From Staphylococcus simiae (GTDB lineage Bacteria; Bacillota; Bacilli; Staphylococcales; Staphylococcaceae), in assembly GCF_017357005.1 (NCBI RefSeq), contig NZ_CP071589.1:1240001-1304000 (forward strand): a stretch of 64,000 nt of DNA. Reading direction: 5' to 3'. Positions 7,632 through 58,622 of the stretch are shown piece after piece; position 1 is the stretch's first letter, and each line of letters starts with the position of its first letter. The position numbers and the translations under genes are program-made. A model generated the notes under the pieces. It had not been told where the DNA came from. It did no database searches and saw nothing but the letters and a program-made list of their open reading frames with translations.

Positions 7632-7680
7632 TTGACAATGATTCTCAATAGTGTATAATACTATTTGAAAATGATTATCA
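7632..7680 (+). promoter_or_regulatory. Fur-type iron-regulated promoter of isrR
   Basis: Sigma-A promoter with -35 TTGACA (7632-7637) and a perfect -10 TATAAT (7654-7659), 16-nt spacer. Two Fur-box-like 7-1-7 elements overlap it: TGACAATGATTCTCA (7633-7647) over the -35 and TGAAAATGATTATCA (7666-7680) over the predicted start. They match TGATAATNATTATCA at 12 and 14 of 14 defined positions approximately. This layout predicts repression by Fe-Fur. Confidence 0.85.
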
Positions 7681-22396: not shown

Positions 22397-22450
22397 TATA
22401 AGTTTAATCGAGTAGGAGGATAACCATTATTTGATTATCCGTCCTCTCAC

Positions 22451-22484
22451 ACCACCGAGCGTACGGTTCCGTACTCGGCGGTTC
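22451..22484 (-). ncRNA. Group II intron domain V
   Basis: RNA on the minus strand: lower stem ACCGCCGAG / CUCGGUGGU with one G-U pair, upper stem UACG / CGUA capped by a GAAC tetraloop, and a 2-nt CG bulge on the 3' side. This is the compact domain V layout that forms the catalytic core. Confidence 0.8.
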
Positions 22485-23778
22485 AATATCTTGCGTAAGC
22501 CGTCTCTGCGAGTTGGGTTAATGGTTCTAACCCCCACTTGTAGAGACGTTTTGTTGTAAGTGCACGATGAACTTCATGCGTTGATGATAAGCGCCAGTAT
22601 TTCTTTCTTGAATTGGCAATTTTCATTGCACTCTTATGGTCAAGTCCATACTTACGTAACATCTTATATTTGGTTTTTATTCTTTTCCATCTTTTGAGGA
22701 TTAGTTGTCTAATGCGTCGGTTTAACCATGATTGTAACTTCGTTACAAAACCTGTAATAAATCCTTTACCAAAGTAATTTATCCACCCTCGTGTTACTTG
22801 ATTAATTTCTGATATAATCTCTTTAAAGGTACCTGGTCTATTTCGTTTCGTTAGACGTCTTAAGGTGCGTTTTAAATTTCTTCTTGCTTCCATAGTCGGT
22901 CTGAAACGATAAGTGCCATTTACTTTGGTCATTAGACAACTCAAGAACTTTAAACGTGTGATAGAACCTACCTTGCTCTTTTCACTATTTACAATAAGTT
23001 TAAGGTCTTTTTCGATAAACTTTGTCACACTTTCCATGACACGTTGACCCGCTCGTTTTGTACGTACAAAGATGACGAAGTCATCTGCATAACGAACAAA
23101 GCGATGACCACGTTTCTCCAATTCATTATCTAATTCGTGAAGATAAATATTACAAAGTAACGGGGAAATAACACCACCTTGCGGTGCACCTATTTCTCTA
23201 CTTCGATAATTACCATTGAGGTCGATTGCACCAACCTGTAGGCTTCTACGAATAAATTTAGAAATGGCTTTATCTTGAACATGTCGTTCAAATAGATACA
23301 TTAATTTATCATGGTTCAACATATCAAAGCACTGTTTTAAATCACAATCAACTGCAACTAAGTAACCTTCTTCATAGTATGTTGCACATTCTTTAAGTGC
23401 AGTTCCTGTACTACGATTCGGTCTAAAGCCATGACTGTGTTTTGAGAAAGTACGGTCGATACTAGGTTCAATGACTTGTTTAATGGCTTGTTGGATAACT
23501 CTGTCTCTTGCGACAGGGATTCCAAGCACGCGCTTTTTCCCATTTGATTTAGGTATTTCAACCTTTCTTACTGCTTGTGGCTTATACGTGCCATCAAGCA
23601 GTTTTTGTTTAATTTGTGGAAAGTATTTTGCGAAATGTGATGTTAATTCACTTACTCGCATGCCATCGATGCCAGGTGCACCGTTGTTTTTCTTCACTTT
23701 CTTAATTGCTTTTTGTATATTATTCTCTCTTACAACAAGCTCCATCATAGATGGAGACTCACGATACATTTCTTTCAT
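22483..23778 (-). CDS. ltrA: Group II intron reverse transcriptase/maturase
   Basis: 431 residues. RT domains: NGAPGIDGMRV near 33-43, a template-contact block (GIPVARDRVIQQAI), CDLKQCFDMLNHDKLM near 140, and the catalytic YADD near 224 (RYADDFVIF). The maturase X domain (GIIM: GTFKEIISEINQVTRGWINYFGKGF near 315-340) aids splicing. There is no C-terminal HNH endonuclease, as is usual for class C. The ORF appears intact. The TGA stop overlaps the 5' edge of domain V. Its role is splicing and retrohoming of the intron. Confidence 0.93.
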   Translation of the reverse strand: MKEMYRESPSMMELVVRENNIQKAIKKVKKNNGAPGIDGMRVSELTSHFAKYFPQIKQKLLDGTYKPQAVRKVEIPKSNGKKRVLGIPVARDRVIQQAIKQVIEPSIDRTFSKHSHGFRPNRSTGTALKECATYYEEGYLVAVDCDLKQCFDMLNHDKLMYLFERHVQDKAISKFIRRSLQVGAIDLNGNYRSREIGAPQGGVISPLLCNIYLHELDNELEKRGHRFVRYADDFVIFVRTKRAGQRVMESVTKFIEKDLKLIVNSEKSKVGSITRLKFLSCLMTKVNGTYRFRPTMEARRNLKRTLRRLTKRNRPGTFKEIISEINQVTRGWINYFGKGFITGFVTKLQSWLNRRIRQLILKRWKRIKTKYKMLRKYGLDHKSAMKIANSRKKYWRLSSTHEVHRALTTKRLYKWGLEPLTQLAETAYARY

Positions 23779-24271
23779 TTCACCTAAGATTTACTGTACG
23801 CACTCATATATCCTTTTTCGTTCCACTACTTACCTTTCTATGAGTTGCCAATCATTAATTGTATTCTGTACGTTGTAAATCTCTAACCTCCATTCTTTAC
23901 TTTGTATGAATATTGTTCAGTCCTTCAGTATTTCTACCTACTATGACCTCTGCTGACTTCTCATCATTCGTTATTACTACGATTTTTTTATCGCTGATGA
24001 GACCTCCCCGGGTAAGAGTAACCACTTTCCACTCATTCCACTGCATCATTTACTATATAGAACTCGGGTAGTATCGGACTTTATCTTGTATTGCAGATTC
24101 ATCCATTCCACATAGCCTTGTATGATATTTCTGTTCGTCAGTGCGAGTGTTTGCGTCCGACTTCCTTCAGATTCCATTTCACAATGGACACCCTTGTCTT
24201 TCGCTAACAGTTCCTACTACCAAGCCTGTAACGGACTTTCACCGTCTAGTAATTACCCATGCCGGGCGCAC
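23779..24271 (-). other. 5' ribozyme part of the group II intron
   Basis: About 490 nt of domains I-III between the 5' splice site and the maturase ORF. It is G-rich and GC-richer than flanking core sequence, with conserved stretches such as GACGGTGAAAGTCCG and GAAGGAAGTCGGACGC. No protein gene. Confidence 0.75.
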
Positions 24272-24273
24272 AA

Positions 24274-24313
24274 TAAAAAAAGACGGTAGGAATTCAAGTT
24301 ATTCCTACCGTCT
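24274..24313 (-). terminator. Terminator of ebh; landing site of the intron
   Basis: Perfect 13-bp stem AGACGGTAGGAAT / ATTCCTACCGTCT (24281-24293, 24301-24313), 7-nt loop, then seven T on the minus strand (24280-24274). It lies 18 nt after the ebh stop and 3 nt before the intron. Confidence 0.93.
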
Positions 24314-24330: not shown

Positions 24331-27300
24331 TTATTTTTTCTTGTTATTACTTTTCTTTTTCTTTCTTTTTGCTACTACTTTGTTATTTTTTCTCTTTGTT
24401 GTTGCTTGTTTAGACCGTTTGTTAGTACTTTGTTTTGTTGGTTTTGACGCTGCTTTTGGTTGTTTAGTTTGACGTTTATCAATGTTCTTCGTTTTTGTCT
24501 CAGAAGATACTTGTTTTACTTTAGTTTGTTGTTTGTCTTGTGAATCTTTCTTTTGTTTAGTAGCAACTAATAAATGATCTGGATTTAAATCATCTGCATC
24601 TATAGATGATTGCTCTTCTTTTTTATGTTTAGCTCCTACTAATAGATCACTTGGATTTAAAGTAGCTTTTAAATCATTATCTTTATTGACGTTACTATCT
24701 TCTACTACTTCTTCATCTTCTTTACGTCTTCTCTTAGCTAAAATTAACCATAAGCTTGTGAATATACCACCTATTGCAGCTGCGCCAATTGATTTTTCAA
24801 GCGTACTAATAATATTGTCTATTAAGTGATTCGTATTTGCTACTGGATGTTCTTTAGAGTTATGTGCTTTATCTTTGTTATCTTTATCTGCACCGTTAGC
24901 ACCATTTAACACTAAATGATCGTTTAAATATGACTCATGTAAATCTTCAAAACGATTAGCCAAGTTTGCAATCTTATGAACTGCATTGACATCACTTGTA
25001 ATGAAATGAGGACCATTAGGTAGTACGATATTGGCCAATTGTTGTAAACCTATATTCAATGCTTTATAAACATCTGCTATAGTATTTGCATTATTAATGG
25101 CCTTAATAGTATCTTGCTCAATTTGATTAACATGACTAATCATTTGACCTTTATCTGAATCAGTTACAAAAGGATTACCTATAATCTCTTGAATCTTATT
25201 AGCAGCAGCTTTTCTAATTTGTTGTTGCGCTACATTTTGTGCCTGAGATTTATTTAAAGCTTTAATCACTTCTTTAGGATTTAAGTTTGTTAATTGATCA
25301 AGTGCACGATGCTTAATTTGTTCAACTTGGTTCACAGATGTAGCTTTATTAATGTCTGACAGTGCTTTCGTAATAATTTGATCGATCACTTTATTAATAG
25401 CATCTTTTTGAACCGATGTTAACTTAGGCAGTTGTTGAATTTGTTGTTTCTTAACAATACTTTGTGTTGTTAACTGCTGTTTAGCTTCAGCTTTTGCAAT
25501 ATTTAATGGTGATTCGACAACCACGACTGGTACTTTTACGACTGTATTTGTACCATCTGCTAAAGTTACAGCAACAATTGCATTTAACGAATCTGATAAT
25601 TTGTTAGTTGGTGGTATTAAAATAACATCTGCTTTAATTTCATCATTTAAATCTAAATGTTCTAATACCTGTTGCTTAGTAATTTTATCATCTCGATAAA
25701 CAGTTATCTTACCTTTAACTAAAGCATCTTGAATTGATAATGCAGGAAGATCATGTACTAATGCTTTATGGTCTGTATCCCAAATTGTAACATTAGCTAT
25801 ATTATTCAAATCATTGTTCAAGTCATGTGATAGTTGATTACTAGTTAAAGCATTTTCAATATCTGATAATGCCTGTTGACGAGCATTTTCAAGTGCTTTT
25901 AAGGCATTTTGACGTTGAGCATCAGTTAAATCAGGATTTTGTTCTATTTCTTGACGTTTTCTATTAACTAAATCTTCAACTGCTTGTTTAGCAGCTTCTT
26001 TAGCATTAATTAAATCTTTAATAGATTGTAAAGCATTTTTAAATTGCTCTTTAGCTTGATTGATTGCATCTTTAGTTGTTGCATCATTAATTGCACTATT
26101 TGCTTGTGCTAATGCCTGATTAACTAAATCTTTAAGTTTTTCTTTTTCAGTCGTAGTTAGATGATTATTGTTGTTAATATCATTAATGAGAGAATCACTT
26201 AATTGTGTTACATCGTCTTTAGCATCAAGTTTAGCTTTTGGTAATTCATCAGCATGTATTGATGGAATTATTTTATTGGCATTCGCAATCACTTGATCAA
26301 CATCATTATTAGATTGAGCATTGTTTAAATTATCAATAGCTTGCGATAATGCTTGATCAACTTCTGCAATTGCTTGTTGTTTAGATTGCTCAGTAGCATT
26401 AGCATGATTGATTGCATCTTTTTGTGCTTCAGCTAAATGTTGAAGTTGTGCAAGAGCTTTAGCTTTACTATCTGCTAAACATTGCTCACCGTTTAAGGCT
26501 TGTTTAGCATTAGCAATGGCTTGTACTAATTGATGCACTTGATTACTATCTAATGCACTTCCTGTTGTAGGATTTAACGCATTTTTAGCTATGTTAATTA
26601 CTTGATCAAAGGCTTGTTGTAAATCTTTATCCGCATTTTGATATGAAATGCTATTTTTAACTTCATTTTCATTTGTATCAACATTTTGTTGTAAAGCTTT
26701 CATAGCCTCATTTAATGACGTTGCATCACTCACTACTTTATTCACTGTTGGTATATCATTTGCTTGATTTATGTTAGCTTTGGCTTGTGCTTTTTGTGCA
26801 TCGTTCAAAGCATTCAAATGATCAATCGTTTGTAGTGCATTAGCTTTGGCATTAGCAAGTTTTTCATTACCATTTAAGGCGTCTATTGCTTGTTTAATTT
26901 TACCAATAGCTTGTTTAATCTTAGCTGGTAATTGACTATTATCTTTAGCTAATTGTCGACCATCATTGATAGCTTGATTATAAGCTTGCTGTTTATCATC
27001 ATCAGCTTGCGTATAATTATTATTTGTTGTAATGTCAGGATATTTATTTATTAAGTCTTTTAATTTAGCCATAACATCATTGACTTTATCAGCTAATTTC
27101 ACAATATTATTTACTTTATTGATTGTTGGTACAGCATCAACAGCTTTATTAAACGCTTGTTTTTGTTTGTCATTCAAGGCTGGTAATTGATTAATGTGTG
27201 CTTTAGCTTGATCTTTGAATTTAGCAATTTGTGCATCGCCATCTAAATGATTTAGGGCTTGTTTTAACTTGTCAATCGCTGTTTGAACATCTGATTGACT

Positions 27301-30300
27301 TGTATCTGGACCTGTAACTTTATTAATTAATTGTTCCGCTTCATTCAAACTTTGGTCAAAGGCTTGTTTATTAGTTGAAGTAGCATCAATATAATTAGGC
27401 GTTGTCTTTGTTTGTTGTGATTTATTAACTAAATCATTTAAATCTTTCATACTGTTATTTAATTGTGTTGCATTGGCAACGATATTATTGACAGCTGTTC
27501 TCGCAGGTGCTTGATCAATTACTTGATTGATAGCTGCTTTTTGGGCATTTGTTAACGCATCAAGTTTTGCTACTACATCTTTCGCATCATTTTTATCTCT
27601 ATCAAGTTTATCTTGACCATGGAGTGCTTGTTTAGCCGCTTCAATATCTGCTATAGCTTGATCTATCGTAGTCTTATCAACAGTAACATTTGTACCATTA
27701 ATGATGTCTTCTGCCTTCTTAACTGCATCATCATATGCTTGTTGTTGTGCAGGGTCTTCGTTGATGTAGTCACTACTTTGTTTTATTTGATCTTTCTTAG
27801 CAACTTCACTGCGTAACGCATTCATGGCATTATCCAAATCTTGTGCTTTAGCAACAAGTTGTTTCACTTGTTCTCTTGTTGATGCTTGATCAATGTCATG
27901 ATTCAATGCATCTTTTTGACCTTGATTCAAGTTAGATAAACCATTAATCGTTTGTGTCGCAGTTGTTTGATCCACTTGTAATTTATGAGCACCATTTAAA
28001 GCAGCTTGTGCTTGAGTAACACGTTGTGTCACTTGGTCAACTAATGCTTTATCCATAGTTGGATTTGTAGTTGCATTAATCATATCATTCGCCGCTGTTA
28101 TAGCATCAGTATAAGCATCTTGTTCAGGTTGATCTTCATTAATGAAATTACTACTTTGTTTCACTTGGTCGGCATCTTGGATACTGTGTCTCATCGCCGC
28201 CATAGCATTATTTAAGTCTTGTGCTTTATTAACTATATTAGCGACATCTGTTCTAGTTGGTGCATTTGTGACTTCGTCTACTAAATGTTGACGTTGTAAA
28301 TCAGTTAAGCTTGATAATTGACCTAATGTTGAATTAGCCGTTGTTTTATCATGTGCTAGTTGCGCTTGACCATCAAGATTTTGTTTTGCTTGTGTCACAT
28401 TATTAGTAGCTTGATCAACTACATCTTTATCTAATGTCGGGTTAGTAGTATTATTAATAATTTGTTCTGCATGAGCTACAGCATCAGTATAAGCTTGTTG
28501 CTGTGGTTGATTTGCATTAACATAATTACTACTTTGTTTAATAGTATTTTGATCTTGGATACTATTACGTAATGCTGACATCGCATTATTTAAAGCTTGT
28601 GCTTTCGCAAGTTGTGCTGCAACTTGATCGCGTGTTGTTGCATTTGTCACAAGTTGTTGTTCAGCTTGTTGTTGTGCTGTAGTTAAAGATGATAATTGAC
28701 CAATGTCATGGTTCGCACTATCTTTAGCATTTTGTAATTTAGTATCACCATGTAAATTATCTTTCGCTTGGTTGACAGCTTGTAACACATTGTTAATTGT
28801 ATCAACAGACATTGTTGGGTTTGATGTTTCACCAATTAAACCTTGAGCATGTGCAACTGCATCAGTATATGCTTGTTGTTGAGTTGGATCTTCATTAATG
28901 AATTTGGAATCCGCTTCAACTTGTGCATGATCTTTGATACCGTTACGTAAATTTGTCATGGCACTGTTCAATGCTTGAGCTTGTGCTAATTTAGTTGCCA
29001 CTTCTGTTCTAGTTGGTGCTTGATTAATATCATTGGCTAGTTGTTGACGTTGCGCTTGATTTAAATCTTGTAAACCAGCTAGTTGAGTTAATGCATCTTG
29101 TTTATCGTGTGCTAATTTATCGTCTCCATGTAATGCATCTTTAGCATTATTGATTTGACTTAAAGCGCTGATTACAGCATTTTTGTCAATGACTGGGTCA
29201 TTCTGTTTATTAATTAATGCTTCTGCATCACGGATAGCTTGATCATAAGCATCTTTTGGACCTTGATCTTCATTGAAATAATTGCTGCCATTTCTAACAT
29301 GTTGTTGTTCTGCAACAGCTTGTTTCAGTGCTTGCATTGTGTTATCCAATTCAGCAGATTGGGCTTTAACTTGATTCACTTCGCCACGTGTTGTTGCTGC
29401 ATTCACTAATTCTTTTTCTTTCGCTTTTTGAGCATTAGTTAAACCAGGCATAGCGTCTATAGCTTGTTCAGCAGCTAATTTATCATTTGCTAAATTACTA
29501 TTACCATCAAGTGCTTTAATCGCGTTAACAATTTGATCTTTCACGGATGTCACTTGACTTGGTGTTAACACTGGATTGTTCGCTTCATTGATAAGTTGAT
29601 TTGCTGCTTGTTGTGCTTGATTAACAGCATCTTGGCTATTTTGTGAAGCATTGATGTAATTACCTGTTGCTTTTGTTGGATCTATTTTCGCTACTTCGTC
29701 ACGTAGTGCTTGCATCGCTGCATTTAAATGTTGCGCATTTGTCACTACTTCGGCAACTTTGTCTCTAGTTGTTGCCGCTGTAATTTGATCTTTTATAGCA
29801 TGACGTTGTGCATCACTTAAAGCTGTTAATCCATCAACCGTAGTCGTTGCTTGTGTTTGATCTTTTTGTAATTTACTAGCACCTTGTAATGCATCTTTAG
29901 CTGTTGTGATATTTTGAGCTGCTTGATTAATAACATCAACATCAGTATCAGGATTAGTTGTTTTAGCAATAATAGCTTCAGCAGCTTTAACCGCATTATC
30001 ATAGTTATCTTTAGGACCTTGATCTTCATTAATGTAATTACTGTCATTGTGAACTTGGTCTTTGGCATTAACTAAGTTGTGTAATGTTTCCATCGCAGTG
30101 TTAAGTGCTTGCGCTTGTTGTAATTGTGCTTTAACTTCGTCCCTTGTTTGTTTAGCATCCACTTTGGCTTTTTCAGCTGTTTGTTGAGCTGCAGTTAAAT
30201 GATTTAACGTATCAATTGTATTGTCAGCTTGTTGTTTATCATGAGCTAATTTTTGTTCACCGTGCAAGTTGGCTTTTGTTGTATCAACACTTTGTGTTGC

Positions 30301-33300
30301 TTGTTCAACTTGTTGTTGATCAATGATGACATTAGGACTATTAGCTATAATGTCTTTGGCATGTTGTACTGCTTGATCATACGCTTGTTGAACTGGTGGA
30401 TCTTCGTTGATGTAATTACTACTTGCTGTTGTTGCTTGATTATCTTGAATGCTATGACGTAATGCTTCCATCGCACCATTTAAAGCAGTTGCTTGATTTG
30501 TTTGTGATGTGACGTCCGTACGCGTTGGTGCTGCATTCACTAATTCTTTTTCTTTAGCCTTTTGTTCATCTGTTAATGCAGTTAACTGATCAATCGTATT
30601 ATTCGCATCAGTTTTAGCTTGTGCTAACTTAGCGTCACCATCCAAATGTTGCTCTGCAGATGTTACTGCTGCCGTCTTCGCTTCTACTTCTGCCTTGTCT
30701 AGTGTAGGTGAAGTTGTTTGATTAATAATTGCTTCAGCATCTGTGACAGCTGTATCGTATGCTTGTTGTTCTGGTGTATCAGCATTAACATATTTACTTT
30801 GTTGTTTCACTTGATCTTTATTAACGATACTTTGACGTAAAGCATGCATAGCTGTATTCAATTGTTGTGCTTTATCTTTTTCAGTAGCAACGTTTGTGCG
30901 TGTATTGGCATTGTTGACTGCTGAAATCAATGCTTGTCTTTGTGGTGCATTTAAATCTGTTAAATCGTTAATGGCTTGAACTGCTGCCGCTTGGTCAGCC
31001 GCTAATTTTTGTGAACCATGCAAATTGTCGAATGCAGTTGTAACATTTGTTGCTAATTGATTTACTTGAGCTGGATCCATCGTAGGTGTTGTCGTTTGAT
31101 CAATTGTGTTTTGAGCATTAGTTACAGCTGTATCATAAGCTTGTTGTTCAGGTTGATTTTCATTAATGTAATCGCTACTTTGTTTCACCTGATCTTTATT
31201 AGCAACTTTATCTCTTAACGTTTGCATTGCATTGTTTAATACTTTTGCTGCATCCAAATATTGTGTTACAGCAGTTCTTGTATCAGCACCAGTAATTTGT
31301 TGTTCAATTGTTTGACGTTGTGCTGGATTTAATGCTGAAAGTTTCGCTAATTCTGCTGTTGCTGTCGTCTTATCATTTGCTAACTTAGTTGAGCCATGTA
31401 AATTATTTTTAGCGTCATTAATTTGTTGGATTGCTTGATCAATTTCCGCTTTGTTATTAACTGGCTGTTGCGTATTATCAATAATTGCTTGTGCTTTGGC
31501 AATTGCATTGTCATATGCTGCTTGTTCAGCATGATCCTCATTTATATAATCACTTGTCGCATGAACTTGATCTTTCGCACTGACTAAGTTTCTTAAATCG
31601 CCCATAGCGTTATTCAGTGCTTGTGCTTGTTGTAATCGACTTTGAACATCACTACGTGTTGGTGCTGCATCAATGTCATGATCGGCACTTTGTTGTTGTC
31701 CACTATTTAAGTTAGATAATTGTCCAACTGTTTGTTTCGCTTGTTGTTGAGCATCATGCAGTTTTTGCTCACCATGTAAAGCTTGAATGGCATTTTCAAT
31801 CGTATTAACTACTTGATCAACATCGTGACTATTTAATGTTGGATTTGTTGTATTATCAATAATTTGTTGACCAGCTGCTATTGCTTGATCATAAGTTTGT
31901 TTAGGTCCTTGGTCTTCATTGAAATAATTACTTGTAGCGTGAACTTGATTTTGTGCATTCACTTTTTCACGTAATGCTTTCATTGCGTCATTTAATGCAG
32001 TGGCACTTTGAACTTGTTGTGCGACAGCCGTATTGGTAGTGGCTTGATTAACTAATTCTTTTTCTTTATCTATTTGTGTTGGTGTTAAATATGTTAAGCC
32101 ATCAATCGTACGATTCGCATTATTTTTAGCATCTATTAAGTTTTGATTACCATTCAAGGCAGTCTTTGTATCCATCACAGTCGTAGTTTTAGCTTCGATT
32201 GCTGTTTTATCAAGTACAGGTGTACCAGTTGATTGGTTAATCAAATCTTGTGCTGCTTGCACTGCAGCTTCATAAGCTTGTTGTTTGTTAGGATCTGCAT
32301 TGACAAAGGCACCAGATTGTTTTGTTTGTGCTGCATCTGCAATACTTCCTTTTAATGCACCCATTGCCGTATTCAAATCATCGGCGAGTGTTTGTTTATC
32401 AGCAACGATTTGTCTTGTTGGCGCGTTAACAATTGCATCGATTAATGCTTGACGTTGCGGTGCATTTAAATCGGCTAAACCATTAATGTGTGCTTTTGCT
32501 GCTGCTTTATCATTAGCTAATTTATCAGCACCATGCAAGTTGTGTTTCGCTTGTTCAACATTATGCATCACTTGTTCAATTTGAGTCGGTTGCATTGTGG
32601 CATTAGCTTGTTGATTCAACAGATCTTTTGCTGCTTGAACAGCATTATCGTATGCAGTTTTGGCGTCTGGATTTTCATTAATGTAATCACTGCTTTGTTT
32701 TGTTTGTTGCTCATCAGCTATCGATTGTTTCAATGCTGTCATTGTATTATTAATTGCTGTTGCGTCATTGACATGTTGCGTTACATCAGTACGCGTTGTT
32801 GCACCATTGATTTGTGCTTCAATGTCATGGCGTTGAGCTGGATTCAAGTCTGCAAGTTTGGCAATTTGTGCTAAGGCATCTTGTTTAGTATGTTGTAATT
32901 TTTGTTCACCTTGTAATGCATCTTTAGCTTGTGTAATCGCTTGAGCCAATTGATTAATATCAGCAGCTTGTAATACTGGTTGATTTGTTTTAGCTATTGC
33001 ATCTTTAGCTGCTTGAATCGCAGTTGTATAAGCGCGTTGCTTATCTGGATCCTCATTAATATAATTACTGCTTGCTAAAACATCATGTTCAGCATCAACT
33101 AATGCTTGTAATGCACCCATTGCTGTATCTAAGTTTTGAGCTTGTTGTAATTGTTGAGCAACTTCAGGACGATGTGTAGCAGCATTAATTAAATCTTTTT
33201 CAGCTTGACGTTGTGCATTAGTTAAATGTGTTAAACCATCAATTGTTTGATTGGCTGCTTGTTGTTCTTGATGAAGGATATCTTCACCGTGTAAATCAGC

Positions 33301-36300
33301 TTTAGCTTGATTAACTGCAGTTAAAGCTTGTGTTACAGCATCTTTATTAAGTTGTGGATTGGTAGTTGCATTAATGATTGCATTGGCAGCATCTACAGCA
33401 TGATCATACGCCTGTTGTTTAGGTGCATTTTCATTAAAGTAATTGCTACTAGCTTTGACTTTAGCCACATCTTTAACGCCATCTCGTAAAGCTTGCATTG
33501 CTGTATTCAATTCTTCAGCATGCGTCACTTGTTGTTGAACTTGACCTAATGTTGTTGCATTATTTACTGCTTGTTTTTCAGCTGCTTTTTGTGGATCATT
33601 TAACGCTGTTAAACCATCAATTGTTTGATTAGCATTAGCTTTGGCTTCAGCTAGTTTAGCAACACCATTTAAATCATTATTCGCTGTAGTAACAGCTGTT
33701 GTTTGATTGTCAATTTCTGTTTTATTTAATGTTGCTGGTGCTGCTTGATTAATGGTGTTATTGGCAGCATTTACTGCATCAGTATAAGCACGTTGTTTAT
33801 CAGCATCTGCATTGACATATTTCGATTCAGTTATCACTTGATTATAATCAGCAATACTTTGACGTAAATTACCCATTGATGTATTCAAATCATTAGCTTC
33901 TGTTCTAATATCTTGAACTTTAGTACGTGTTTGTGCTTGGTTCACTCGTGCTTTTTCAGCATCTCGTTGTGGTCCATTTAAATTAGTCATTTGATCAATT
34001 GCAGCATTGGCTTGTTGTTGATCATGTTCTAATTTAGTTTGACCATGTAAATTACCAAGTGCAGTTGTCACTTCATTAGCACGTTGCGTAACTGTTTGTG
34101 CATTCATCTCTGGATTTGATGTCGCATTAATAATATCGTTAGCTGCTTGTACTGCATTTGTATAAGCTGTTTGTTCAGGTTGATCTTCGTTAATAAAGTC
34201 ACTACTTTGTTTCACAGTATTGTCATTAGCGATACTATCACGTAATGCTTTCGTCGCGTTATTTAAGTCTTGTGCATGTTGTAACTCGTTAGCAACATTT
34301 GCTCTAGTGTCCTGAGCATCTACTAATTGTTGAGCTTTTGTTATTTGAGCTGGTGTTAAGTATTGTAAGTTACCTATTGTCGCTTTCGTTGTTGTTTTAT
34401 CTTGTTGTAGTTTAGCTGCACCATCTAACGCGTTTTTAGCAGTATTAATAGCTGTGATTGCTTGTTGAACTGTAGCGTTATCTACTACTGGATCAGTTGT
34501 TTTAGCAATGATTTGTTCTGCTTGTTGGACAGCATTATCATAATTCGCTTTTGGTTGAGGGTCTTCGTTAATATAGTTACTTTGTTGTTTTACTTGTGTA
34601 CTATCAGCAACTAAACCTTTTAACGTACCCATTGACGTATTCAAATCTTGCGCTTGTTGTAATACTTGTGCTACTTCAGTTCTTGTAGCTTTGCCATTAA
34701 TACTAAGATTAATGCTATCTTTTTGAGCTTGTGTCAAGTTCGGTAATCCATTGACATCAGCATTGGCATCATGCTTAGCTTTAGCTAGTTTTTGTGCACC
34801 TTGTAAAGCATTTTTAGCTTGAATAATTGTATTAAGTGCTTGTTCAACTTGTGCTTTCGTCATTGTTGCTTGCGGAGAAGCATTAACAATATTTTGTCCA
34901 GCTTGTACTGTATTATCATAATTTGCTTTCGGTTGTGCATCTTCGTTAATGTAATCACTACTAGATTTAGTGGCGTTAACTTTATTTAGTTCAGCACGTA
35001 ATGCTTCCATAGCTGTGTTCAATTCTTTAGCTTGTGCTAATTGACTAGCTACGTCAGGTAACATTGTAGCTTGGTTAACATTTGCTTTTTCAGCTATTTG
35101 TTGTGCTGTATTTAAACCTTGTAAGCCATCAATTGTTTGAATTGCATCTGCTTTTGCTTGTTGTAAACGACGATCGCCATCTAAAGCTTGTTCAGCATCA
35201 GTAACTGCTTGGGTCTTATGCTCAATTGCTGTTTGATCTAATGTCGGTTGACCATTTTCATTGATGATAGCATTCGCTGCGTTCACTGCATCCGTATAGG
35301 CAGTTTGTTTAGTAGTATCAGCATTAATGTAATTACCTTGACCTTTAATTGTATTAACATTAGCTACACTATTGCGTAAAGCTTGCATTGCAGTATTTAA
35401 ATTATTAGCTGTTTGTTCTGTAGTTGAAACTTCTGTTCTTGTCTTAGCGTTGTTAATAGCTGCAATTTCAGCATCGCGCTGTGGTGTATTTAAGGCATGT
35501 AAGTTATTAACATTTGCTTTCGCTGCATCTTTCGCTTGTTGTAGTTTAGTTTCACCATGTAAACCTGCAATAGCTTGTTCGATTGCTTGTACAGCAGTAT
35601 CAATATTAGCTTTTGTCAATTCTGGATTTTGCGTTTTAGCAATGATATCTTCGGCATGTTGTATTGCTGCATCATATGCTTGTTGCTCATTATGATCTTC
35701 ATTGACATAATTACTGCTTGCTTTAACCGTATTTTTATTATTGACTAATTGGTTTAGTGTACCCATTGCGCCATTAAGTTCGTTAGCTTGTTGCTCAATA
35801 GCAGAAACTTGTGTTCTTAATGTTGCGGCATTGACTTGTGCTTTTAATGCATCTTTTTGAGCTGCTGTTAAGTTAGGTAAATGATCAATATCATTATTTG
35901 TTGTTGATTGTTGTTGATGTAATTTACCATCACCGTCTAACGCATCTTTGGCTGTAGTTACGGCATTCGCTGCATTTTGAACTGCTTGTTCAGACATTTC
36001 AGGATTATGTTGCTCATTAATGATTGTATTCGCTGCGTTCACTGCATTTGTATAATTATGTTTTGGACCTTGGTCTTCGTTTACAAAGTTTCCACCAGCG
36101 ATAATAGTTTGGTTATCTTTGATGTTATCGCGTAAACTCTTCATCGCACCATTTAACGCAGTCGCTTGTGATACTTGATCTGTTACTTTAATTGTTGTAT
36201 CGGCTGCATTAATTAAACGTTTCTCTTCATTTTTTTGAGCATCTGTTAAAGATGTTAAACCATCAATATCAGCTATAGCTGCTTGTTTAGCATTGGTTAA

Positions 36301-39300
36301 TTGACTATTACCATCTAACGCTTGTTTTGTTGCAATCACTTGAGCTGTTTGTGCTTCTATCGCTGCTTTATCTAATGTTGGTTGCGTTTGTTGACCTTCA
36401 GTCGCTTGAGCTGCAGCAACTGCTTGATCATAGGCTTGTTTCTTAGCTTGATCAGCATTGATATAGTTACCATCTGCTTTTGTGGTGTTGACATCGGCAA
36501 TAGATGCTTTTAATGCTGTCATAGCACCATTTAACGCAGTAGCATTATTTTCAATTGTTGTCACTTCTGTACGTCTAGTTGCATTATTGACTGCTGCAAT
36601 TTCAGCATCACGTTGTGCTTTATTTAAATCTCCTAATTGTTTGATTGCATTAACTGCATTTTGCTTAGCAGTAGCTAATTTTTGATCACCATGTAAATTA
36701 GCTTTAGCTGCAGTAACAGCATTAGTTAATTGTTCAATTTGAGCTTTATCCATTTGTGGATTAGCTGTTGCATTAATGATTGCTTGGGCATTAGCCACAG
36801 CTTGATTATAGGCATGTTGTTCATTAGGATCTTCATTAAAGTATTTACTATCAGCTTTAGTTGCTTGTACATCATTAATAGCTTGTCGTAATGCTTGCAT
36901 TGCTGTATTTAATTGTTGGGCATCATTTAACGCACTTTGTACAGCTGGCAATGTTTGAGCATTGTTAACATTTTCTTTAGCTTTATCTTTTTGTAATGGT
37001 GTTAAGGCATCTAAACCATTAATAGTGTTTGCAGCATCAGCTTTTGCTTGTCGTAAACGTTCAACACCGTTTAATGCTTGTTTAGCTTGATTAACGGCAG
37101 TTGCTTTCGCAGTTATGGCATCTTTATCCATAGTAGCGTTCGTTGTTTCATTAATAATATCGTTAGCTGCTGTAACGGCATCGTTATAAGCATTTTGTTT
37201 ATCATTATCAGCGTTTATATATTTGCTCTCAACTTTTACTTGGGCGTTATCTTGAACACTTTGTTTCAATTGTCCCATTGCTGCATCCAAAGCTTTAGCA
37301 TGTGCTAATTGTTCAGCAACTTTTGTACGTGTATCTTGGGCATTGACTAATTGTTGTTCTTGCGCTTTTTGTGGTGCATTTAAATTTGGTAAATTTGTAA
37401 TTTCTGTATTGGCTTTAGTCTTGTCTGTTTGTAATTTATCCGCACCGTGTAAGGCATCAACAGCATTAGTGATTGTTTGTGTTGCTTGATTAATTGTTGA
37501 TTCGTCTATGTCAGGATTTTGCGTTTTATTAATAATATTATTCGCAGCTGTTATGGCATTGTTATAGGCCTGTTGTTCAGCTTGATCTTCATTGATGTAA
37601 TTACTGCTAGTTTCTACATTATGTTGTTGGCCAACTTTGTCACGTAAATCATGCATTGCTGTATTTAAGTTTTGTGCTTGTTGTACTTGTGTTGTAACTT
37701 CTGTACGTAACGTTTTAGCGTTGACTAATTCTTTTTCTTTAGCTTTTTGTGCATCAGTTAATGATGATAAACCGTCGATAGTGTGTTCAGCTTGAGTCTT
37801 CGCTTGTTGCAATTGTTGTACACCATCTAAAGCATTTTTAGCAGTAGTGACAGCAGTTGTCTTACTTGTGATAACATCTTTATTCAATTCTGGTCCTTGT
37901 TGTGCATTGATAATTGATTCTGCACTTTGCACAGCTGTATCGTAATCAGCTTGTTTAGTAGGATCAGCATTGACATATTCACTCTTACGTTTTAGAGCAT
38001 CTTTATCAGCGATTGCTTGACGTAATCCTTGCATTGCTGTATTTAATGCCTCTGCTTCAGTTTGTTTTTGAGCTACTAATGTTCTAGTTCCTGCTTGATT
38101 AATTGCTGCAATTTCTGCGTTACGTTGAGCATCAGTTAAATACTGTAATTGCCCAATGGCTTGGTTAGCTTGCTGTTTCGCTTGTTGCAATTTGTGCTCA
38201 CCTTGTAATGCAGCTTTAGCATTATTAACCGCTTCAGTTGCTTTAGCAATTTCAGCTTTATCCATTTGTGGATTATTAGTATCATTAATGATGTTTTGAG
38301 CAGCAGTCACTGCTTGATCATATGCCTGTTGTTGTTGCGTATCTTCATTAAAGTAATTACTGCTTGCTTTAACTGTATGCACATCTTGAATGCTTTGTTT
38401 AAGTGCTTGCATTGCTGAATTTAATGCTATGGCATGATTTTCAGCAGCTGTTACTTGTTGTAATGATGTCGCAGTAGCAACAGATGCTTTCTCATGATTG
38501 ATTTGACCTTGGTTGAGTGAAGTCAAACCATCAATCAAGTTATTAGCATGTGCTTGTGCATCACGTAAACGTTGATCTCCATTTAATGCTTGTTTAGCTT
38601 GGTTAACAGCTTGTGCTTTTTGATCAATGTCCTGTTTAGAAATTGTAGCAGTTGTTGTTTCATTAATAATGTCATTAGCTTGATCTACTGCTTGATTGTA
38701 TGCTTGTTGTTTATCTGCATCTGCATTCGTGTAGTTGCCTTGTTGTTTCACTGTAGCATTGTCAGCAACTGCTTGTTTTAATGCTGCCATAGCAGTATTC
38801 AATTCTTTAGCCGTAGCTAACTGTTGTGCCACTGCTGTTTTAGTATCTAAGGCATTTATTAATGCTTTTTCTTTATCTTTTTGTGGTTGATTTAAAGCAC
38901 TTTGTTGATCTATATCATGATTAGCTGCATCTTTCGCTTCTTGTAAACGTTGAACACCATTTAAATCATTATCTGCTTGTGTCACTGCTGTTGCTTTTGC
39001 ACTAATAGCATCTTTATCCAATGTTGGAGTAGTAGTTTCATTAATAATCGTTTGAGCATTAGTTACTGCTGTATTGTAAGCTTGTTGCTTATCTATGTCT
39101 GCGTTGACATATTTACTTTGTGTACGTGTTGTTGCATCATGTTGAATGCTTGTACGTAATTGACCCATTGCTGTATTTAATGCTTCTGCTTGTGCTTTGA
39201 TTTCAGCTACTTTTTGACGTGTTTGAGCAGCATTGACTGCTGTAATTTCAGCATTACGTTGTGGTGTATTGAGATTATTTAATGCACCAATTACTGTATT

Positions 39301-42300
39301 AGCAGCTTGTTGGTCTTTTTCAAGTTTTTGTTGACCGTGTAAATTACCAAAAGCAGTAGTCACAGCTGATGTTTGTTGCTCAATGACTGCTTTATCCATT
39401 TGTGGATTAGCGTTCGCACTGATAGTATCTTCAGCTGTTGAAACGGCATTATCGTATGCTGTTTGTTGTTGACTGTCTTCATTAATATAGTTGCTAGATT
39501 TTTTCACAGTAGCAACATTTTGAATACTGTCACGTAATGCTTTCATTGCATTATTTAACTCTGTCGCATGTTGCACTTGATTGTTAACAGCTGAAATTGT
39601 TGTAGCTGCATTAATACGAGTTTCCTCTTCAGTACGTTGAGCAGTTGTTAAATATTGCATATGACCTAAATTAGCAATGGCATCACGTTTAGCATCCGCT
39701 AATTGACCAATACCATTCAAAGCACTTTTAGCAGTTGTCACGGCATTCGTTAGTGCTTCAATCTGTGCTTTCGTCATTGTTGGATTTGACGTTTGTGCTA
39801 TAGCTTGTTCAGCGTTGCGTAATGCTTGATCGTAAGCATCTTTGTGCTGTTGATCCGCATTGATATATTTGCTATCACCTTTGATCGTTGTTTGATCAGC
39901 AATACTTGCTTTTAATGCTGTCATCGCATTATTCAAATCAGTTGCTAATGTTTTAACATCTGTGACTTGTTGACGACGTTGTGCTTGGTCAACTTGGTTA
40001 TTCAATGCTTGTCGTTGTGCATTATTTAAGTCATGCATTTGTGCGATTGCAGCTTTAGCTTCAATTTGTGCTTGATGTAATTTATCTTCACCATGCAATT
40101 GATTTGTAGCTTGTTCGATAGCTTGCGTTGCACGTTCAATTGTTGCTTTATCTAAATCTGGATTTGCAGCTTTATTGATAATTGCTTTCGCTGCTTGGAT
40201 AGCCGTATTGTAAGCATTTTGTTGTTGTGCGTCTTCATTGAAATAGTTAGAACTATTCGTTACTTGTTGTTCTTTGGCAACTTGTGCTTTTAAGGCTTGC
40301 ATTGCAGTGTCTAAGTCACTTGCTGTTTGTTGTTGGCTAGTCACTTCTGGAATTGTTTGTTTGTCATCTACTAATGCCTTTTCAGCAGTTTTTTGCGCTG
40401 GTGTTAATGATGTCATCGCATCAATGGCTTGTTTAGCTGCTGTTTTACTTTGTGCAAGTCTTTCAACACCATTTAATTGATTGTTAGCATTATTAACTGC
40501 AGTCGTTTGTTGTTCAATGTCAGCTTTCGTTAATGTTGGGTTTGCTGTTTGATTAATGATGGCATTGGCAGCTGTTACTGCATCATTATATGCATGTTGC
40601 TTATCTTGATCAGCATTAATATATTTACTACTGTTTAAGACATTTTGATTATCTGCCACACTTTGACGTAATGCTGTCATGGCACCATCAATTGATTTAG
40701 CATCAGTTAACTGGCTATTGACATCTGTAATCGTATTTTTAGCATTAACTAATTCTTTTTCTTTGTCTTTTTGAGCATTATTTAAACCATGTAATGCTGT
40801 AATTTCGTTGACTGCGTTTTGTTTAGCTTCTCTTAAACGTTGTTCACCATTTAACGCTTGGTATGCAGTTGTAACATCATTGGCTTTTTGCGTTACTGTA
40901 GCAGGTGTCATTGTTGGATTATTTTGCTCTCCAATAATAGCTTCAGCTGCTGCCACTGCTTGATCATAAGCTGTTTGATTAGCACTATCTGCGTTAACAT
41001 ATTTAATCGCTGCTTTTGTAGCCGTTTTATTAGCAATACTATCGCGCAGTGATTGCATAGCATTATTTAATGTATTAGCGTCAGCTTTAAGTTGGTCTAC
41101 TGACGTAATTGTATTAGCACTAGTGATATCTGCTTTAAACTTATCACTTTGTGGTTTGTTTAAGGCATGATAACCATTGATTGCTTGCATAGCCACTTGT
41201 TTCGCTTGTGCCAAGCGTGTATCACCATCTAATGCTTGTTGTGCACGACTAACATTTTGAGCTTGACTAATAATCGCTGTTTTATCCATTGTTGGATTTG
41301 TTGTTTGTGCGATTGTTGCTTTTGCTACACGTACTGCGTCATTATAAGCACCTTGTTTTGATGTTTCGGCATTGACATAGTTTGTACCAGTTACTATTTG
41401 TGAATTATTAGCAATGGCATTTTCTAATTGACCCATTGCTGTATTCAAGTCATCAACATGTTGTTGTTGAGTTGCTACGTCTGTTTTAGTTGTTTTAGCA
41501 TTAACTAAATTTACTTCTTCATCTTTTTGTGCTTGGTTTAAATGACTTAACGCATTGATATGATTAATTGCCGCTGTCTTAGCTTCTTGTAACCGTTGAA
41601 CACCATTTAATGCTGCTTTAGCATTTGTCACAGCAGTCGTTTTTGCTTGCACATCTGTAGCTGACATTGTTGGATTAGCTGTTTGTGCAATTAAAGTATT
41701 AGCGTCTGTTACAGCTTGATCATAATTGTGTTTCAAATTATCGTCAGCATTAATATATTTGCTTTCACCTTTAACTGTTGCATCATCTGCTACACTTTGT
41801 CGTAATTGTTGCATAGCATTATTAAGATTTTGGGCATCACTAACAATTGTTGGTAATTGGCTTCTTAAATGAGCAGCATTAATTAATTGTTGTTCTTTCG
41901 TTTGTTGTGCTTGGTTTAACGCTGATAATTGATTAATAATTGCTAGATCTTTGGTTTTATCTGCTTGTAATTTTTGATCACCATGTAATCCTGTTATGGC
42001 ATCATTAACTCGTTGTGTTACTTGTTCGATTGAAGTCTTATCCATAATTGGATTGTTATTTTGATTGATATCGTGCTGTGCTTGAGTTACAGCAGCTGTA
42101 TATGCTGTTTGCTCTGCTGAATCTTCATTTAAGAAATTACCACTAGCTTTAATATCTTGTTGATTGGCAATACTATCACGTAATGCTTTCATTGCACCGT
42201 TTAAATCTGTTGCATTAGTCTTAATACTTTCTAGTTGTGCATGATTTGGTGCTTGATTCACTTGATTTAAATATTGTGCTTTTTGACCATCATTTAAGCT

Positions 42301-45300
42301 TGTCATGCCATTAATCGCAGAAATGTATGGTTGACGATCAAGTGTTAATTGTTGACGTGCTTGTTCTAGTTCATTTTTAGCATTGTCATCTTTTGTCACC
42401 GCTTGACGAATGTCAGCAACTGTTGGATGACCTGCTAATAAAGCTTTACCTTCATTTAATGCTTGGCGGGCTGCTGTAAGTTTTGCATTATAAACATCTA
42501 ACGAACTTTGTGTCATACCGACTGTGTCAGTTGGTGTATTGATGCTAGCTTCTAAAGCATTTTGTGCTGTAGTTAACGGTGCTTTGTCTGGTGTTAAGTT
42601 AGCAACTGCTTGTTTGTAACTACTATTTTTTGCATCAACATTAGAAGTCTCAGTGGCGATTTGTTGTGCTGTCGCGTCACCATTGTTAATCACAGAATCA
42701 GCTTGAGTAATTTCCGCTTCAGCTTGTTGACGTGCTGTATTGTAAGCAGCAATTGATTGTTGTGTCATACCATCAGTTGAAACTGCTTTGGCAAGTTCTT
42801 GCTGTAATTTAGCTTTGGCAGCTTGTAATGCACTGTTATCTTCTTTTGGATGCAATTGATTAATAGCATTTGTGAGTTCGTTATTGACGCGATTTACTTC
42901 TTGCAACGCATGTTCCACTTCACTAACTGTACGAATTGGTTTGTTAATCACTGTGTTAGCTTGATTTTTGGCATGAGTAATGTCATTTCTAATAGCGTTA
43001 TAAGCTTTGTTATAAGCTGTGACACTCGCTGGTTTCATACCTGTTGTTGTACCAACACGATCCAATTTAGCTACTGCAGTTTGTAAAGCAGTAACATCAG
43101 CTGTTAAGTGTGCTTTAGCATCATTTAATGCTGATAATGCTTGTTCAACTTTTGTCTTTTCATCGGCAATTTGTTGCTCTGTAGCATCACCATTATTGAT
43201 GACATTATTTGCTGCTGTAACAGCTGCTTGTGCCTCGCGTTGTTTAGCTTGATAGTCATTAACACTTTGGCTCGTCATACCAGTCGTTGATGGTACTTGA
43301 TTAATAGATGCTTGTAATTGATCTTTGGCATGTACTAATTGACTATTATCAGCTTTTGGCACTAATTGATTAATGGCAGCTGTAACTTTAGTTTGAACGG
43401 CTTGAACTTTTGCTAAGGCATCTCTTACTGATTGTACAGAAGGATTAGCATTATCAATGACACCTTTTGCTTCAGCTTTGGCAGCATCTACTTCATGTTG
43501 AATCGCATGCATTGCTTGATTGTATTTTGTAACACTGGCTGGGCGTTTGTCCGCTGTATCTACATGTTCATTCAATTTATCGTATGCTGCTTGTAATGCT
43601 GTTTTATCTGCTCTTAAACCATCTTTAGCTGCATTATAGGCTTGTAATGCTTGCTCTACTTGTGCTTTTTCATGCGCAATATCTTGATCTGTCGCATCTC
43701 CATTATCAATAACACGTTGTGCAGCTGTCATTGCTTGACGAGCAGCAGTCAATTTTTCATTGTATAGTTGTGCTGTTTGCGCTGTCATACCATCAGTACT
43801 AGCTGGCGTCGCAATTGCTTGTTCTAATTGTGCTTTAGCTTGTTTTAACGTACTATTGTCAGCTTTTGGTACTAATTTTGCTTTCGCTGCGTCGACTTTA
43901 GGTTGTACAGCATGAATTTTAGCCAAGGCATCATTAACTTGAGCTACTGTTGGATTATTATTTGCAATTACACTAGTCGCTTCATTTTTCGCAGTATTAA
44001 TTTCGTTTTGAATTTGACGCATTGCATTTTGATATGCTGTGACACTTGCTGGACGTTTATCGGCAGTTGTCACTGAACTATTTAATTGTTGCAATGCTTG
44101 TTGTAACGCTGTTTTATCTGCTCTTAATCCATCTTTAGCAGTGTTATATGCTTGCAATGCTTGATTAACTTTTGTTGTTTCATCACTAATTTGTTGCGCT
44201 GTGGCATCGCCATTGTTAATTACTGCATTAGCATTCGTAATTGCTTGGCGAGCGGCTGCTAACTTGTCGTTATAGTTACGAGTTGTATCAGCCGTCATAC
44301 CAGTAGTATCGGCAGGTGTAGCAATAGCATGTTCAAGATTTTGTTTAGCTTGGACGAGTGCACTATTATTTTCAACTGGATGCAGTTTAGCTATAACAGT
44401 AGTTAATTTCGCATTAACATTATCAACTTGTCTTTGAGCTTGTTCTACTTCTTGTACTGTTCTAATTGGTTTATGAATAATAGTTTCAGCTGCTCGACGT
44501 GCTTGGTTAATTTCAGGTGTTAGAGCTTGATATGCATGATCATAATCAGCTATACTTGCTGGTTTTTTACCTGTTTTATCTCCAACTCGATTTAAATTAT
44601 TAACTGCACTTTGTAATGCTGTAACATCAGCTGTTAAATCATGCTTAGCTTGATTTAAAGCAGTTAACGCATTATCGACTGCTGTCTTTTCTGCTGCGAT
44701 TTGTTGCTCTGTGGCATCACCATTATTGATGACATGTTGTGCTGCTGTAACTGCTGCTTGAGCTTGTTGTTTATTAGTATTGTAATTATTAATACTCGCT
44801 TGTGTCATACCAGCTGTTGATGGTACTTGAGCAATCGCTTGTTCTAATTGAGCTTTTGCTTGTTGTAATGCACTGTTATCTGCTTTTGGCACTAACTTCG
44901 CTTTCGCAGCGTCTACTTTAGTTTGAACTGCTTTTATTTTGTTTAAGGCAGCCGTTACTTGGGCAACTGATGGATTGGCATCTTGTAAGATTTGATGTCC
45001 TTCTTGTTTAGCAGCATCTACTTCATGTTGAATCGCTTGCATAGCTTGATTATATTTTATGACGCTTGCTGGACGTTTGTCTGCTGTATCTACATGTTCA
45101 TTCAATTTGTCATATGCTGTTTGTAATGCTGTTTTATCAGCTCTTAAACCATCTTTAGCAGTATTATATGCTTGTAACGCTTGATCAACTTTTGTTGTTT
45201 CAGCACTAATTTGTTGAGCTGTGGCATCACCATTGTTGATAACTGCTTCAGCTGCGTGAATTGCTTGCTCTGCTTCACGACGTTTATCATTATATGCTTG

Positions 45301-48300
45301 AGTTGTTTGTGCAGTCATACCTACCGTTGAAGCGGCTGGTGTCAGTGCTTGTTGTAATTGATTTTTTGCATGTACTAACGCAGAGTTATCAGCACGATTT
45401 TGTAATAAGGCTTTCGCTTCATTGATTTTAGTTTGTGCTGCTTGGACTTTTGATAATGCTGCAGATACTTGTTGTGGTGTTGCAGTTTGGTTAGCAATAA
45501 CTTGATCTGCTTCTGTTTTAGCTGCTTGGATTTGTGAATGTGCAGCTGACATTTTGTTGTTATATGCTGTAATACTTGCTGGTGTTTTACCATTAGTATT
45601 TATCGCATTGTCTAATTGATGTCTTTCAGTGATCAATTGACGTTTATCGGCACGTGTATAAATATTTTCAGTAACTTCTTCAGTACTATTATCGTTATAT
45701 GTGATAGTAACTGGAATTGGTGTTGTACTTCCACCAGCTAAGTTAGTAGGCATTACAGTACCATGTTTAATAGTAGCATTACGTTTATTTGCTACTTGAA
45801 CTGCGTTATTAATTTCATTGGCTGTAACGTTACTTCCATAATCTTTATTGATTTGGTTGATTGTCACATTATGTGCAGCTGGTGCTGTAATTGTACTCAC
45901 TTTTGTACGACCTGTTGCACCACTACTAGCTTTCGCTGTAACTGTTATTGATGAAGTTGGTTTGATCGTATTAGCGTTAAATGTTACTTTGCCCGTTGCA
46001 CTGTCCACTGTGACATAAGCAGGTTTATTGGTCATTGACCATTGACCATTGCTTCCTTTTGTTACAGTTATCGTTTTTTGTTGCTCTCTACCGTTAGCTA
46101 ACTTTTCAATATAAGCAATGTCTAGAGCATCAGTTGGATTTGTAGTGTTAACTGGATTGTTAGGTGTAATGTCTAACGTACCATTTTGCCATTCTTTTGA
46201 ACGTGCTTGATTTGGTTCGGCTGCTACAACGACAAAGTTATCGCTTGCTATACTATCGCTGGCAATTTCACCGGTACCTTGTGTAGCTACAACAACAATA
46301 TTATCTCCCGGTTGTAGTACACCAGCGTTAATTGTAATACCAGAAGCACTACCATTTATACCAGTTACTGAAGTAGCTGCAGGTTCTTTAGACCATGCAC
46401 TTCTATTATTTGCTCTAACAAACGTTGTTAATGTTTGACCATTTTTCTTAATTTCTAAGTGATCTGCGTATTCAGTAACATTGCCTGCATGTGTTGCAAC
46501 TGATTTATCTAGACCTGGTGTGATCGTAATCGTACCATTAACAGTCTCTGAGATTGTTGCTTTATTCGGTTGTACATGTTTAACAATGAATTTAGCTGGT
46601 TGTGACGTCATCCATAAATGGTTAGAACTATCATAAATGTTGTATTGAGCATTATATACTTTAGCAATATTAGGACGATTCATTGCTGTCCGTGTAGCAT
46701 TACTACTTCCAGTGGCAGTATTATTCCATGTGTAATGCCATAAGTTTGTTGGTACGCCATTACCGTTTTCTAAATGAACATAGCTGTTTACATCTATTCC
46801 TGATGCTAGCGTTTGTCCAACTGTAGTAACATATTCAGGTTGTGCAAAGTCGAAATTGTAAACATAGTAATCTACTGGCACTCTATAAGGTGTTGAAATG
46901 CCATCATAGGATACATTTATTGCTAAATGCTGTACACCTGCTTGTTGTGCGTTTGGCGCAGTATTATGATCCCATTGTGCAGTAATACCTGTCATATCTG
47001 TATTTCTAGGGAAGTCTAAATAATGCATTGGATCTGTACCTTTACCAGGTTGATTACCTTTTTTGTCATACACAGGTGCTGCAGTTGGTTTGGCATAGAC
47101 TTTTACTGGTACATTTACTTCTCTAGTACCCTGTCCATTAGGTAATGTGACTGTAATTGTCTTAGTAAAGTTGCCTACCGTATCTTTCCATGTATCTGGT
47201 GCTTCATTCCATTGCGCCGTCGCTCTTCTTGGTAAATGATCTATATAATGCGCAGCATCATTATTGAGATTTGTACCACCTTGTAAAATGACTACACCTG
47301 GATTGGTCGCATGTAATTGTGCTGTAACACGCACATGGTTACTATCAAGTGACTCAATAGATTCTGCTTGTGTTAGACGTACTGCTTGACCAGCACTATT
47401 TAAAGTGTCATAAGTCATATTTGGATCAGTTATGAAAGAACGCGCATAAATTTCACCTTCAGGCAATGCCTCAGTTACCGTAGCTACTGATGAGTTATTA
47501 CTACCGTATGTTACATTGCTAACTGTTAATTTTGTACCATCTGCTTTAAATATTTCTAATGGTGAATTTGTTAAAACATTATTAACAGTAATTTGTTGGT
47601 TCGTTAATCCCGCTTTATATGTCACAGAATTACCATCTACTCGTGGTGGGTCTGGTCGAACTTTAGCCAAGATTTTAACTTCTTCTACTTGACCGTTAGG
47701 ATATGTGACACGTGCAGTTTTAGATTGTAGACCTACAACTGTCCAGTTTGGTCCATCACCATTAGGGAAATTAAAGTTCATCGCACCTGCGCCACCAGGC
47801 CATGAATTATTAACTGGTTTCAAATATTCTCCCGGCCAGTATCCATTATTAATACCATTAAATTTTCTACCTCTAGAAGTAATGAATATTTCTTTCGGTA
47901 CACTTCGTGCAACCATATAAGATGATTCTTTAACTATCGGTGTTGTTTCTCCATCGTATAAGATATTAGCTCTAACCGTAATATCACGACCATAGTCTGT
48001 ACTATTAATATTTGGTTCATTACCTGCAACCCATGTGATTGTAGCATCAGGAACTGCTCTACCATCTGCTAATTTAAAGAAGTTGGCAGCACCTGAACCT
48101 TTACCAGCTGGGAAATTTTGTCCATAAACTGTATATTTAGGATCTGCAATCACTTCATATAATGCATGTTTAACAAGTACATCAATTTGAGAAGTTGTAC
48201 CATCTGCATAACGATATGTTACTGTCACTTGTGCGTGATTACCGTTACGACTAACATTACTTACTTCTTTAGCAGTAATTTCATTAGTTGGTGCTGTCAC

Positions 48301-58276: not shown

Positions 58277-58622
58277 TGGTCTCTCCCAAATTGGACTGAT
58301 ACATAATTATTTTTTTAAGCCTCGCTATGCCCAACTTGCATTGCATGAAAAAACTGGATAACCAGTTTTTCTGTGTTGGGTCCCTTCCTAGGGTGCTGTC
58401 TCAGCCTCCCCAACTTGCATTGTCCGTTGAAACTAAATGATTAGTTTCTTTTTGTTGGGGCCCCGGTCTTCGACTAGCACTGTTGCCCAACTTGCATTTC
58501 TTGTAGAAACTGTTTCACAGTTTCTCTGTGTTGGGTCCCTACCTCAGGAGTCTCGGCTTTAAAATAATTTTTATTTTAAATTAATCATTTTTTATTTATC
58601 AGTCCTAAAAAATAGAGAACCA
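58277..58622. repeat. STAR-like intergenic repeat cluster (three hairpin units)
   Basis: Borders TGGTCTCTCCCAAATTGGACT on the left (first 20 bases matter) and AAAAAATAGAGAACCA on the right match the short element at 13995-14063. Inside are three units CCCAACTTGCATT-hairpin-TGTTGGG(T/G)CCC (58330-58384, 58409-58466, 58487-58540). This fits the S. aureus STAR consensus TGTTGGGGCCC. Stems: GAAAAACTGG/CCAGTTTTTC, GAAACTAA/TTAGTTTC, AGAAACTGT/ACAGTTTCT. Confidence 0.8.

Follow-up and report, generated by a model that had tools for sequence, protein, structure and literature searches.

Ebh of Staphylococcus aureus and Embp of Staphylococcus epidermidis belong to a family that includes some of the largest bacterial proteins, and the repeats in them are commonly treated as a single variable family. 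Surface-bound fibronectin is a ligand of both the F- and the FG-repeats of Embp (PMC7587433). The solved repeat (PDB 6GV5, Embp residues 6777-6902) carries a strong dipole: the N-terminal ends of helices 1 and 3 make up its positive side, and helix 4 with the C-terminal end of helix 6 its negative side. Adjacent repeats were suggested to hold each other by means of this dipole (PMC7587433). We describe here the ebh gene in a stretch of 64,000 nucleotides (the window) from a genome of one contig (2,621,864 bases), whose odhA is 97% identical to that of Staphylococcus simiae and whose ebh surroundings share 91-95% DNA identity with that species. What is new is a signature that crosses the joints between modules, the old age of the module subfamilies, and an S. 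epidermidis-like array in S. simiae and its kin.

The ebh gene and its module array

The gene lies at 24331-53202 on the minus strand and encodes, from a GTG start, a protein of 9623 amino acids, Ebh, which is homologous to Embp of S. epidermidis. From the N-terminus it comprises a YSIRK-type signal peptide (residues 1-41 match those of S. aureus Ebh at 90% identity), an extended region free of repeats, FIVAR-like repeats of shorter length, the array of 126-residue modules, DUF1542 repeats, a membrane segment and a basic tail. The region behind the array (24331-26490, minus strand) contains five DUF1542 repeats by Pfam, followed by a hydrophobic, membrane-spanning segment and a Lys-rich tail that were read from the sequence; it is 90% identical to S. 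simiae over 331 residues and 30-36% identical to other staphylococci with an Ebh C-terminus. Ahead of the array, within the FIVAR-like repeats at 42355-45702, residues 3197-3616 are nearer to S. aureus (55%), while residues 2501-3616 as a whole follow the S. epidermidis layout (44%), and from these comparisons separate parts of ebh may have separate histories.

A group II intron occupies 22409-24275, immediately downstream of ebh and next to a terminator-like hairpin; it has a reverse transcriptase frame at 22483-23778 and Rfam matches to RF02001, RF01998 and RF00029 on the minus strand. This intron is missing from the S. simiae type strain, where the counterparts of window positions 22408 and 24276 are 4 bases apart. 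On the other side, exonuclease and dynamin-like genes directly adjoin ebh, and in the genomes we identify as S. aureus (G019) and S. argenteus (G061) permease-like genes adjoin the N-terminal side, joined in the latter by alanine dehydrogenase-like and threonine dehydratase-like frames. Elsewhere in the window, RNA matches at 7656-7840, 10758-10932, 58377-58589 and 62326-62706 belong to the S. aureus families tsr25, S414 and S35 and to RNase P RNA class B.

Landmarks and an HMM cut divide the array (26491-42354, minus strand; protein residues 3617 to 8904) into 42 full A-S modules of 123-127 residues, spaced by about 126, nearly where the original prediction had placed 42 modules of two interspersed kinds (26470-42345). 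These tandem repeats, each with a GA plus a FIVAR domain, are the hallmark of Ebh and Embp; in the modules tested (33-36) both domains score far above the Pfam cut-off. By landmark, 23 modules are of NED type (NED/NEN) and 17 of NAD type (NAD/NAE/NAS/NAN), and two are divergent (one IDA, one TQA), in the order EAAAAEAEAAEAEAEAEEAEEEAEEEAEEEAEEAEEAEE-IDA-TQA-A from the N-terminus, where E stands for NED type and A for NAD type. Modules 40-42 (26491-27618, minus strand), with the landmarks IDA, TQA and QNA, form a divergent array end, and landmarks of TQA/RQA type and QNA/RNA/LNA type occur near the array end in other species also.

The interleaving is irregular, as had been predicted, with 24 type switches along the array where shuffled orders gave 18.9 +/- 3.0 (p=0.06). 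Regular alternation of the two types was considered and dropped at this p value, and a higher-order repeat of A-E-E-E blocks was rejected as well, there being no identity peak at lag 3 or 4 (amino acid identity 39.5 and 41.7 against 38-42 elsewhere). The predicted dominance of NED modules in the C-terminal half is not significant at the midpoint, the two halves having 10/21 and 13/21 (p=0.54); when the last three modules are left out, NED modules make up 6/16 of modules 1-16 and 17/23 of modules 17-39 (p=0.046), at a cut-point that was picked after seeing the data.

Age of the module types and history of the gene

The reference S. simiae Ebh is that of the type strain CCUG 51256 (locus L001, genome G016), in which 42 of 43 modules pair in order with the 42 of the window at a mean identity of 93%. 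For every module of the window, the best match in the type strain sits at the corresponding place (86-98%), and the runner-up reaches at most 59%. The one difference is an additional module in the type strain, its number 40, which follows module 39 (27619-27993 in the window, minus strand). The S-half of this extra module resembles module 39 of the type strain, yet at only 69.5% DNA identity, and the module differs from its neighbours, which suggests a loss in the window strain rather than a recent gain in the type strain. Within the window array, modules share a mean identity of about 39%, the most similar pair reaches 67.7% at the DNA level with no preferred lag, and no long high-identity DNA repeats were found, so that recent block duplications of the kind that had been anticipated are not seen. 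Given the one-to-one match with S. simiae and the lack of any closer pair, the array was in place before the split from S. simiae.

For the wider comparison we took G021 as S. epidermidis, as its residues 6777-6902 have exactly the sequence of PDB 6GV5, and G019 as S. aureus, on the strength of 96% identity to 2DGJ; G095, G017 and G061 complete the S. aureus complex, and G061 we take to be S. argenteus MSHR1132. As stated in the original prediction, NED modules with LHG ends are few and near the C-terminus in S. aureus: they account for 4 of the 52 modules in G019, at positions 43 and 45-47 (the array of G017 also has 52 modules). The arrays of the S. aureus complex and of two further genomes, G025 and G104, consist mostly of modules of a third type, DAD, with an E-A-E-E-E stretch near the C-terminus and are mutually collinear at 57-94%. 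The S. epidermidis array (23/39 NED) and that of G002 (29/47) are NED-rich mosaics collinear with each other at 67%. Against both of these kinds of array the window reaches about 38-41% along the best path. In the set without S. simiae its collinearity score peaks at 30.6, with G002 (shuffled orders 16.6 +/- 2.1); with S. aureus it is 24.4 (shuffled 16.5 +/- 2.2), compared with 139-286 between S. aureus and its own relatives, so that the position-by-position pairing with S. aureus modules that would have spoken against reshuffling is indeed absent.

The contrast with S. aureus had been read as a lineage-specific expansion, in which NED modules were rare in the ancestor and were multiplied and shuffled in this lineage alone. 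Such an expansion would fit the mere 4 NED modules in each array of the S. aureus complex, G025 and G104, and the fact that the window's order differs from that of every array but S. simiae's. However, the arrays of S. epidermidis and G002 are equally NED-rich, the low ceiling on DNA identity between window modules gives no sign of recent duplication, and NED modules of different species intermix in a tree almost at random, which together make an expansion restricted to this lineage quite improbable. The tree comprises 247 units, with the type-defining columns left out, and although trees from 126 columns are poorly resolved, its units group by type (22 changes; shuffled 108 +/- 4) and not by species (131; shuffled 159 +/- 4); among NED units alone, species changes number 40, compared with 44 +/- 2.4 when shuffled. 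This grouping indicates that the subfamilies predate these species. Likewise, window NED units (cut as S-A) are nearer to S. aureus NED units (43%) than to the window's own NAD units (38%), with 39% to those of G002, which argues that the NED subfamily is old. We therefore favor, with reasonable confidence, the view that the array of this giant adhesin from an S. simiae-like species interleaves two ancient subfamilies, both older than the split between the S. aureus and S. epidermidis groups, that its order has been fixed since before the strain and S. simiae parted, and that the subfamilies correspond to two kinds of head-to-tail joint.

A different history, one of gene lineages instead of module turnover, could also underlie the contrast between arrays. 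Either the simiae lineage would have acquired a different ebh (a xenologue), or the S. aureus complex and G025/G104 would share theirs by transfer. Trees of the gene disagree with that of the core genes odhAB: in the odhAB tree (4.1 kb) the simiae pair and the S. aureus complex group together (100/100), a grouping that has been published (PMC8593685), whereas in the tree of the Ebh N-terminal region S. aureus falls with G025/G104 (94/96; the simiae plus aureus alternative has AU p=0.015, on long branches), as it does in that of the C-terminal region (100/99). S. aureus modules are, moreover, collinear with those of G025/G104 at 57-63% and not with those of simiae. Nevertheless, these trees can be misled by their long branches (0.73 and 1.29), and Ebh is a fast-evolving protein throughout. 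The 5'-3' exonuclease and dynamin-like genes upstream also occur in other species, the G+C content is no different, and a donor was not found among 84 genomes of the genus. On balance we lean slightly away from replacement or transfer, while giving it substantial weight beside the preferred account of two old subfamilies in a long-settled array.

The NED/NAD mosaic had also been expected to alter the chemistry of the cell surface over about 5,300 residues. In the window the two types do carry different charges (mean net charge per module about -5.5 for NED and -2.3 for NAD), but this part of the expectation does not extend to G002, in which the types are alike (-3.5 and -3.8), and the spread between species, from about -1.9 (G019) to -8.7 (G104), exceeds that between types. 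NED content alone thus does not set surface chemistry.

Linked residues across module joints

The residues that distinguish the two types are not confined to one module. The original prediction had NED modules ending in LHG/LQG..KL, and indeed residue 126 is H or Q in 20/23 NED modules compared with 0/16 NAD modules (p=2.6e-8), while residue 4 of the following module (4') is K after 22/23 NED modules. The counterpart proposed for NAD modules, LNG/LDG..RL, holds for residue 126, from which H/Q is absent, but the RL is found in only 8/16: residue 4' after NAD is R in 8, Q in 4, K in 2 and N in 2 (p=5e-8 for the difference between types). Mutual information with the landmark type was computed for all columns of a module and of the two modules flanking it. 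In the window it picked out columns 23, 75, 77, 83, 114 and 126 within the module itself and 2, 4, 8, 29, 31 and 40 in its successor, the strongest being 126, 4' and 40'; the linked stretches are residues 74-126 in a module and 2-43 in the one behind it. The type signature thus crosses the boundary, with E79 and H126 in the second half of one module and K4' and R40' in the first half of the next.

This linkage is seen in four groups of genomes. In the window R40' follows 23/23 NED modules and 4/16 NAD modules; in G002 and S. epidermidis the figures are 39/46 and 7/22, and in S. aureus (G019) R40' occurs after 4/4 NED, 0/32 DAD and 1/12 NAD modules. Over six genomes, 74/81 NED modules are followed by R40' against 14/148 of the others, H/Q126 is present in 67/81 against 0/148, and K83 in 7/81 against 98/148. 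Given that the linked residues straddle the boundary, the two "subfamilies" are mainly two kinds of boundary between the S-half of one module and the A-half of the next. In what would be the NED-type joint, an S-half (FIVAR) with N-E79-D and H/Q126 is followed by an A-half (GA) with K4' and R40'; in its NAD-type counterpart an S-half with N-A79-D, N/D126 and usually K83 precedes an A-half in which 4' is R/Q and 40' is usually hydrophobic.

Modules 36-37 (28372-29127, minus strand), which include a NED-type joint (FINED...LHG, then K4' and R40'), were modeled by AlphaFold2 with a pLDDT of 97. The model shows helices at 2-17, 24-35, 40-63, 67-77, 81-98 and 108-123, forming two three-helix bundles as in 2DGJ and 6GV5, and its best Foldseek matches in the PDB are 2DGJ (E 2.4e-9), 6GV5 (TMt 0.96) and 4KJM. 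On the predicted helices, the positive face holds positions 4' and 40', and the negative face holds 74-80 and 126. The solved S. epidermidis repeat, itself an FG-repeat of NED type, has its charge on these very faces, and the subfamilies therefore resemble two sorts of joint between repeats. The linked residues, for instance E79 and R40', may contact each other directly across the joint, in which case they would lock adjacent repeats into a rod.

The same linkage could, in principle, arise from pure co-descent, with the S-half and the following A-half copied as one unit with breaks in the long helix 3, and with no selection for contact. When phased as S-A, the units do give a slightly cleaner separation of the types than A-S modules (judged by same-type minus cross-type identity), they need 12 type changes on their tree where A-S modules need 18, and the extra S. 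simiae module resembles a copy of S39 joined to the start of an A41-like half. What speaks against co-descent alone is that, at a mean identity of about 39%, few positions retain the link and those that do lie at the two charged faces of the solved repeat, while the residues between them are only weakly linked. The similarity of A-halves outside the linked positions tracks the type of their own module about as well as that of the previous one, so the picture of a single S-A unit is not clean either; a test by phylogenetically independent pairs had only 2 usable pairs. Overall, co-descent without contact appears to us a somewhat unlikely explanation, and we retain the reading of two matched kinds of joint.

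More tentatively, and with about as much doubt as we attach to co-descent, Ebh and Embp might follow a joint code with at least three matched boundary types (NED-H/K-R, NAD-N,D/R-V,I,L and DAD-N/N-V,I), each set jointly by both neighbors. The order of joint types could then tune the stiffness and break points of a fiber of about 5,300 residues, and lineages would differ in which type fills the array.

Relation to Embp and S. aureus Ebh

By homology to the Embp repeats, the window Ebh is probably a long, fibronectin-binding rod. In several of the compared genomes ebh seems shortened or broken: G061 (L020-L021) has one frame of 4464 amino acids, G022 (L016-L017) only a C-terminal frame of 1094, and G095 (L014-L015) frames of 8715 and 1673.

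Among the described proteins, S. epidermidis Embp shares with the window the NED/NAD mosaic of FG-repeats and a matching joint signature. It differs in that module identity is about 40% with no clear common order; the frame in G021 is 10,203 amino acids long, and its region ahead of the array has 4513 residues compared with 3616 in the window. Ebh of the S. aureus complex (PDB 2DGJ and 4KJM) has in common with the window the 126-residue A-S fold and the general layout, but its arrays, where read whole, consist mostly of DAD modules with 4 NED modules near the C-terminus, and identity to the window is 40-57% in the N-terminal regions and about 34% at the C-terminus. The lineage closest to the S. 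aureus complex thus has an array of the S. epidermidis kind, not of the S. aureus kind. Sorting repeats by joint type provides a simple, testable rule for how neighbors fit together, and it separates S. aureus-like from S. epidermidis-like arrays.
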